Of a stretch of DNA of 35,445 nucleotides, positions 13,945-17,410 are shown in pieces; the first letter of the stretch is position 1, and every line of letters begins with the position of its first letter. The stretch lies in assembly GCA_003566375.1 (NCBI GenBank), contig PXDN01000300.1, positions 1-35,445 on the forward strand. The letters run 5' to 3'. The notes under the pieces were generated by a model. That model made no database searches and had not been told where the DNA came from. It was given only the letters and a program-made list of their open reading frames with translations. The position numbers and the translations under genes are program-made. Origin of the DNA: Opitutia bacterium. Its GTDB lineage: Bacteria > Verrucomicrobiota > Verrucomicrobiia > Opitutales > T3Sed10-336.

Positions 13945-14652
13945 ATGCCCGATCCAAAGCTGGAAAAACTGCTCATTCTTCAAGACCGCGACATTCGCCG
14001 CCGCGGTCTCGAGCAACAAATCGCCGCCATCCCGAAAGAGATCCTCTCCCTGGAGGAAAAAATCGCCGCTGAAAAAGCCCGCTTGGAAGCCTCCAAGGGC
14101 AAATTGCGCGAACTCGAGGTTTCCCGCAAGGAGGTGGACGGCTCCATCGCCGAAGCCGAACAGCAAATCGCGCGCTACAAGAACCAGCAGCTTCAGGTGA
14201 AGAAAAACGAGGAATACAAGGCGTTGACCCACGAGATCGACTTGGTCCAGGGAAAAATCAACGAACTGGAGGAGCGCGGCATTTCCCTCCTGATCGAATT
14301 GGATGAGGAAAAAAGCCGGATGGAGAGCATCGAAACGGATTTCCGCGGCATCATCGGTCCCTTGGAGGAGAGGATCGCCGATCACCGCGCCCGGGAAATT
14401 TCCCTGAAAGCCGAATTGGAGACCGCCCGCGCGGAGGTGGATGCGGCCCGCGCCGATACGGCGCCGGAAGCGCTCGCGGTTTACGACCGCCAGGCGGGAC
14501 TGGCCCGCATGCCCATCGTGGTCGCGCTGCGGGAGAAAACCTGCCAGGGATGCCACCTGCGGGTCTCCGGCGAGGTGGAGGACGACGTCCGCCGGAACGT
14601 GAAAATTGCCACTTGTGATTGCTGCGGGCGCATCCTATATTGGGAGCGTTAG
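13945..14652 (+). CDS. Coiled-coil plus C4 zinc-ribbon protein (CT398/DUF164-like)
   Basis: Long coiled coil followed by CQGCHLRVSGEVEDDVRRNVKIATCDCCGRILYW. Confidence 0.9.
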   Translation: MPDPKLEKLLILQDRDIRRRGLEQQIAAIPKEILSLEEKIAAEKARLEASKGKLRELEVSRKEVDGSIAEAEQQIARYKNQQLQVKKNEEYKALTHEIDLVQGKINELEERGISLLIELDEEKSRMESIETDFRGIIGPLEERIADHRAREISLKAELETARAEVDAARADTAPEALAVYDRQAGLARMPIVVALREKTCQGCHLRVSGEVEDDVRRNVKIATCDCCGRILYWER

Positions 14653-15072
14653 TTTCGGGGCCGTGTCGTTCGCCGGGCGGTGGCAACGCCGCTTGGAGGA
14701 AAGTCCGGACACCACAGGGCGGGATTCCCCGTGAAAACGGGGGCGCTCCGTTTCAAAGCGGGGCGACGGAAAGTGTCACAGAAAAGATACCGCCTCCCGA
14801 AGATTTTAAATTTCAAATTTGAGATTTGAGATCATTGGGGGGTAAGGGTGAAAAGGTGGGGTAAGAGCCCACCGCCGCGGGGGCAACCGCGCGGGCAGGA
14901 TAAACCCAATCCGGTGCAAGGCCAAATAGGGAACGCGGGCGGCCCGTCCACATCGTTCCGGGTGAGCCGCACTCCGCTTCGGCGGAGAACCGGTTCGCAA
15001 GGACTGGTTAGATAAATGAACGCCCCCCTCTTCGGAGGGGAGACAAAATCCGGCTTACGAGCCCCGAAACTG
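14651..15072 (+). ncRNA. rnpB: RNase P RNA (bacterial class A)
   Basis: GGAGGAAAGTCCGGACACCACAGGGCGGG, ACAGAAAAGATACCGCC, GGTAAGGGTGAAAAGGTGGGGTAAGAGCCCACC, GCAAGGCCAAATAGGGAACG, ACAAAATCCGGCTTACGAGCCCC; P1 stem AGTTTCGGGGC/GCCCCGAAACT is a perfect 11 bp. Confidence 0.97.
14802..14833 (+). repeat. Heptamer repeat (ATTTTAA ATTTCAA ATTTGAG ATTTGAG) inside the rnpB P12 region
   Basis: Direct read; gattttaaatttcaaa/tttgagatttgagatc are complementary along all 16 positions when G.U pairs are allowed. Confidence 0.85.
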
Positions 15073-15099
15073 ACGCCCCTTCGCCCCGCCCGCGCTGCC

Positions 15100-15973: not shown

Positions 15974-16008
15974 CAAATCCAAAATCCCCAATCCAAAATC
16001 CAAAATAA
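15974..16008. repeat. Intergenic heptamer array CAAATCC AAAATCC CCAATCC AAAATCC AAAATAA
   Basis: Five consecutive 7-bp units read directly. Confidence 0.85.
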
Positions 16009-17188: not shown

Positions 17189-17244
17189 GGTGGAAAATTT
17201 TGGATACCGCGCCGAGATTGGAAAACCCCAGCCGCCGGGTCAAC

Positions 17245-17410
17245 CCCGTGGCATCAAGCCTTGCTCGATGACCAAGCGGGCCATGCCATCCCGTGGCATC
17301 AAGCCTTGCTCGATGACCTGCACCCGCGCCTGGGATCGAGCCATCCCCGTGGCATCGAGCCTTGCTCGATGACCCAACCATCCCGTGGCATCGAGCCTTG
17401 CTCGATCATT
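17245..17410. repeat. Four copies of a 29-bp hairpin-containing repeat CCCGTGGCATCRAGCCTTGCTCGATGACC
   Basis: Copies at 17245-17273, 17290-17318, 17346-17374, 17382-17410 (3' end diverges); core ATCGAGC-CTT-GCTCGAT is a perfect palindromic stem. A truncated fifth match (gaccatcccgtgg) lies near 17517-17529. Confidence 0.9.

Follow-up and report, generated by a model that had tools for sequence, protein, structure and literature searches.

The window analysed here, a stretch of 35,445 nt from a relative of Opitutales (phylum Verrucomicrobiota), contains a full-length gene for bacterial class A RNase P RNA (rnpB) at 14653-15073 on the + strand. In a cmscan search with RF00010 the gene matched the whole model (1-367 of 367) at 235.4 bits, against a gathering score of 100, with an E-value of 1.6e-75. 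The source genome (G000), an assembly of 3.6 Mb in 422 contigs that is 88% complete, has one copy of rnpB. Directly upstream lies a gene for a C4-type zinc-ribbon protein (13945-14652, + strand; Pfam PF02591), and tblastn found a homologue of this gene at the rnpB loci of relatives. RNase P RNA is an essential tRNA-processing ribozyme, and P12 is a peripheral, naturally highly variable arm of it. The covariance alignment places a heptamer array in P12 and shows the conserved strands that flank P12 to be intact; the RNase P RNA that carries the array is presumably active.

The P12 segment, as placed by the alignment, spans 14789-14850 (+ strand) with its conserved base (ACCGCC ... GGTAAGGGTG). 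Within it are four units of a heptamer family with the consensus ATYTSAR (14803-14830, + strand): ATTTTAA (14803-14809), ATTTCAA (14810-14816) and ATTTGAG twice (14817-14823 and 14824-14830). Tandem Repeats Finder reported this array at 14801-14832, with a period of 7, 4.6 copies and a score of 36, and the pattern of three ATTTNNN units followed by ATTT matches it exactly. With up to one mismatch, the same pattern has three matches in the window, where 100 dinucleotide shuffles give an expectation of 0.00; three ATYTSAR units with up to three mismatches have six matches in the window, all at the P12 array, with 0.09 expected. For the P12 segment the predicted folding energy is -31.4 kcal/mol (z = -7.67), a stability that none of 200 shuffled sequences reached. 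Given the stability of this fold and the absence of matches in the shuffles, the 7-base periodicity is not a product of chance. A preliminary description of this DNA had claimed heptamers in 7-bp register inside P12, and the unit listing, Tandem Repeats Finder, the shuffles and the cmscan placement all bear this out.

In the minimum free energy fold, the units form a hairpin on the + strand with a 5' arm at 14802-14815, a 3' arm at 14820-14833 and an AAUU loop at 14816-14819. The heptamer helix comprises 14 bp, including three G.U pairs, and is followed by an A/A mismatch and then by a 9-bp outer P12 stem, in which 14792-14800 (+ strand) pairs with 14835-14843. The three G.U pairs had been described correctly; pairing at every position had also been claimed, and this does not stand, since closure is not possible for the two A-U pairs adjoining the axis. 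The further suggestion that the repeat register keeps the element foldable was right, and holds more strongly than it was put. Leaving aside the central S, both AT and YTSAR read the same as their reverse complements. Any in-register array of ATYTSAR therefore pairs with itself, the exceptions being C-C or G-G encounters at the unit centres.

Our same-family set consisted of the source genome and seven relatives (G001-G007), together representing four genera. P12 heptamers are present in G001, G004 and G006, a single unit is left in G003, and there are none in G002 or G007; for G005 no rnpB was found. Family members thus differ in copy number at this one site, with between 0 and 4 units. P12 is 62-64 nt long in the array-bearing family members (n = 4) and 52 nt in G003, which bears the remnant, as against 20-50 nt (median 29) in 42 rnpBs of the same order that lack heptamers. 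The P12 of the source genome is not an ordinary long A/U-rich P12, and the possibility, raised at the outset, that relatives share an ordinary arm of equal length does not hold.

The consensus ATYTSAR is common to the arrays found elsewhere in genomes, of which we extracted 57. Arrays of three ATTTSAR units lie outside rnpB in G002, G004 and G005, and exact arrays of this kind occur in 26 of 141 sampled genomes of the class; in both sets the reversed control pattern had no match. With one mismatch allowed, eight of the nine genomes that were picked by their P12 have such an array (control, 0). An orthologous intergenic array has 6 units in G002 versus 5 in G005, in DNA that is otherwise 93% identical. 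In G000, G001 and G006, the only ATTTSAR array of the assembled genome is the one in P12, and a search of the 88% complete G000 assembly for dispersed ATYTSAR copies (three units, up to two mismatches) found none beyond rnpB except two weak sites. Judged by the dispersal seen in the relatives G002, G004 and G005, the array in the source genome would derive from, and be built like, a short tandemly repeated (STRR) heptamer of its family. The proposed invasion of P12 by a repeat is supported; with ATTTSAR confined to rnpB in this genome, the array looks inherited and retained more than recently arrived.

A second heptamer, ATTTTGG, which is not self-complementary, forms arrays in G000, G001, G003, G004, G006 and G007. 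An array of this type was found by Tandem Repeats Finder and by pattern in the window at 15975-16006 (- strand), between a symporter gene and an MBL-fold gene; the host genome thus has heptamer arrays other than that in rnpB, contrary to a possibility that the preliminary description had allowed for. Several more ATTTTGG arrays, in both orientations, lie between or beside tRNA-like genes at C43:11021-11371 of the source genome (L034-L037), and an array of ATTTTTA at C151:7542-7573 (L032) represents a third 7-base unit.

Species genomes in GTDB were also scanned for P12 frames that hold two ATTTSAR units. This gave 12 records from several lineages, all 12 of which are rnpB by cmscan (three family members were tested under other locus identifiers), and all of our evidence on P12 arrays comes from metagenome-assembled sequences. 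The records include G001, G004 and G006 (SLOW01000098, PXBO01000072 and PWMU01000014), Opitutales/Opitutia MAGs whose sample names denote soda-lake sediments. Others are from Opitutaceae (L094, L098 and L102, joined by L101 and L103 on the evidence of the rnpB tree), Limisphaerales (L095), Pontiellaceae (L099), a Deltaproteobacteria MAG (L104) and a Planctomycetota MAG (L093), the last a weak case with two units only. In an even sample of the class, 2 of 384 genomes have a P12 array, indicating that such arrays are rare outside the source family. The fold axis lies in AT in G000, G001, G004, G006, L099, L102 and L104, and in the central S in L094, L095, L098 and L101. Both the spread over other lineages and the occurrence of two axis types speak for several separate entries into P12. 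The idea of a P12 repeat in a lineage unrelated to the cyanobacteria is upheld and refined by these records, in that such arrays turn up in several further lineages.

Two of the records call for separate comment. L103 (JANQAI010000005.1) bears the name Magnetospirillum and was rejected as a proteobacterial case: its rnpB groups with those of Opitutaceae with a support of 100, and by this placement the record is mislabelled or chimeric. The Planctomycetota rnpB (L093, 6300-6930; 631 nt) has several long arms rich in A/U, and the motif CTTGGTATTCTTTT is common to two of them.

C-centred and G-centred units are mixed in all 12 P12 arrays that were scored, but in 32 of the 57 arrays from elsewhere in genomes (Fisher p = 0.0024), and P12 arrays fold more stably than genomic windows of equal length (p = 5.6e-4, with each genomic array given its best window and strand and the P12 windows centred by hand); P12 arrays within a clade are not independent, so both p-values are optimistic. 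Among 384 genomes of the class, there was no ATTTTGG array in P12, and no pair of ATYTSAR units was found outside P12 in 16 rnpBs. Permuting the order of units within P12 arrays did not make them clearly less stable (the mean fraction as stable was 0.44), and pair counts across the few rows available gave no covariation beyond the built-in symmetry. The mixing of C and G, the higher stability, the absence of ATTTTGG from P12 and the restriction to P12 fit, rather than prove, a filter for foldability that would act on P12 arrays.

Taken as a whole, the data are likely to be explained by an STRR-type extension of P12 by ATYTSAR heptamers that was tolerated as foldable and then retained. In-register units would form an A/U-rich hairpin unaided, with the axis in AT or in the central S. 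An array that landed or expanded in P12, presumably by slippage or recombination, would lengthen an existing helix and leave the conserved flanking strands undisturbed, and the arrays seen in P12 are those with complementary C and G units. In G000, G001 and G006, the P12 array would have outlived copies elsewhere in the genome, kept in place by selection. In rnpB trees, whose deep branches are poorly supported, G001, G003, G004, G006 and G007 fall together, G000 lies outside them, and G002 is placed elsewhere with weak support. This topology fits a gain before G000 split from the g2/g4 group, with reduction in G003 and loss in G007. We propose that acquisition of the array probably predates the split of the family into genera, that the outer units then changed, and that the array was reduced in G003 and lost from G007. 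That the only ATTTSAR array in G000, G001 and G006 is in P12 suggests that P12 has preserved what was lost from the remainder of the genome. A bolder and more tentative version, which we hold to be possible though we would not bet on it, is that a hitherto undescribed ATYTSAR repeat, by virtue of its self-complementarity in register, entered P12 independently in several lineages and is kept there by purifying selection after its loss from the genome, making the RNA a fossil record of repeats.

The heptamer hairpin is best read as a tolerated extension of the P12 helix, and we claim no further role for it. The heptamers could instead be selected for a function of their own, for example as an A/U-rich helix that binds a protein or dimerises; the P12 array being the sole ATTTSAR array in three genomes, and the C/G composition that favours pairing, would both suit such a role. 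We nonetheless think it improbable, as G002 and G007 do without a P12 array, the arrays vary in length and units, and P12 itself has been described as dispensable at times (PMC2858038). We give similarly little credence to the idea that each P12 grew heptamers of its own by slippage within an A/U-rich hairpin, unrelated to any genomic repeat family. Several lineages and two fold axes, AT-centred in G000 and S-centred in L094, L095, L098 and L101, would be expected of such origins, but the P12 consensus is that of the genomic arrays in the same genomes, and no ATTTTGG is seen in P12, although this heptamer too is A/T-rich and occurs commonly among the family genomes. An accidental periodicity in an ordinary long A/U-rich P12, or a misassembly, might be suspected from the high variability of this arm and the modest Tandem Repeats Finder score of 36, but is very improbable and already contradicted by the shuffles, with 0 matches expected, by the recurrence of the same units in the P12 of related genomes that were assembled separately, and by the far shorter heptamer-free P12 of the order.

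Heptamers in rnpB have a precedent in the cyanobacteria, where STRR heptamers are reportedly located in P12. That heterocyst-forming species carry them within the gene for RNase P RNA, as the preliminary description said, is confirmed through a citation (Vioque, 1997, cited in PMC2858038). As far as that citation goes, the two cases are alike in having tandem heptamers of a genomically dispersed family within the RNase P RNA gene. They differ in that the hosts described here belong to other phyla, the heptamer ATYTSAR is self-complementary in register, and in G000 the heptamer family is nearly confined to rnpB. The P12 array of the source genome is best read as a parallel to the cyanobacterial case with a presumably different heptamer. 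What is new is the occurrence in hosts other than cyanobacteria, a heptamer with a built-in dyad, and recurrence across lineages. In the literature searched, no paper dealt with ATTTSAR arrays or with rnpB heptamers in hosts other than cyanobacteria; a search with exact ATTTSAR array strings, a weak test of novelty, found no bacterial repeat paper.

Intergenic arrays of other heptamers have been described: TAACTGA in Beggiatoaceae, Cyanobacteria and Bacteroidetes (PMC4679880), and GGGAATC / GGGGAYT in Xanthomonas and Nostoc (PMC4692102). DNA polymerase slippage has been proposed for them, and RNase P is mentioned in neither paper (PMC4679880; PMC4692102). Like these arrays, ATYTSAR arrays consist of dispersed, mostly intergenic 7-base units of varying copy number; unlike theirs, the unit equals its reverse complement everywhere but at the centre. 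The insertion of repeats into an essential ribozyme extends beyond cyanobacteria, and a single kind of repeat recurs in a single arm. This suggests a rule by which a structured RNA can absorb a repeat that folds on itself at any copy number, and the growth of variable RNase P RNA helices could be tested directly by setting genomes that have active arrays against genomes that lack them.

ATYTSAR arrays also resemble REPs and other palindromic extragenic repeats in being dispersed, foldable and extragenic. REPs, as characterised in PMC3733652, are single palindromes of 20-40 bp, whereas the ATYTSAR palindrome is assembled from a variable number of tandem 7-mers. The window has a REP-like element of its own at 17241-17410, next to the symporter gene, where several copies of CCGTGGCATCGAGCCTTGCTCGATGA run head to tail; a 141-base query has 23 matches in the source genome. 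At 1540-1747, a 104-base unit occurs twice in tandem, with the copies 85% alike, and contains the inverted parts GGGAGCGC / GGCGCTCC.
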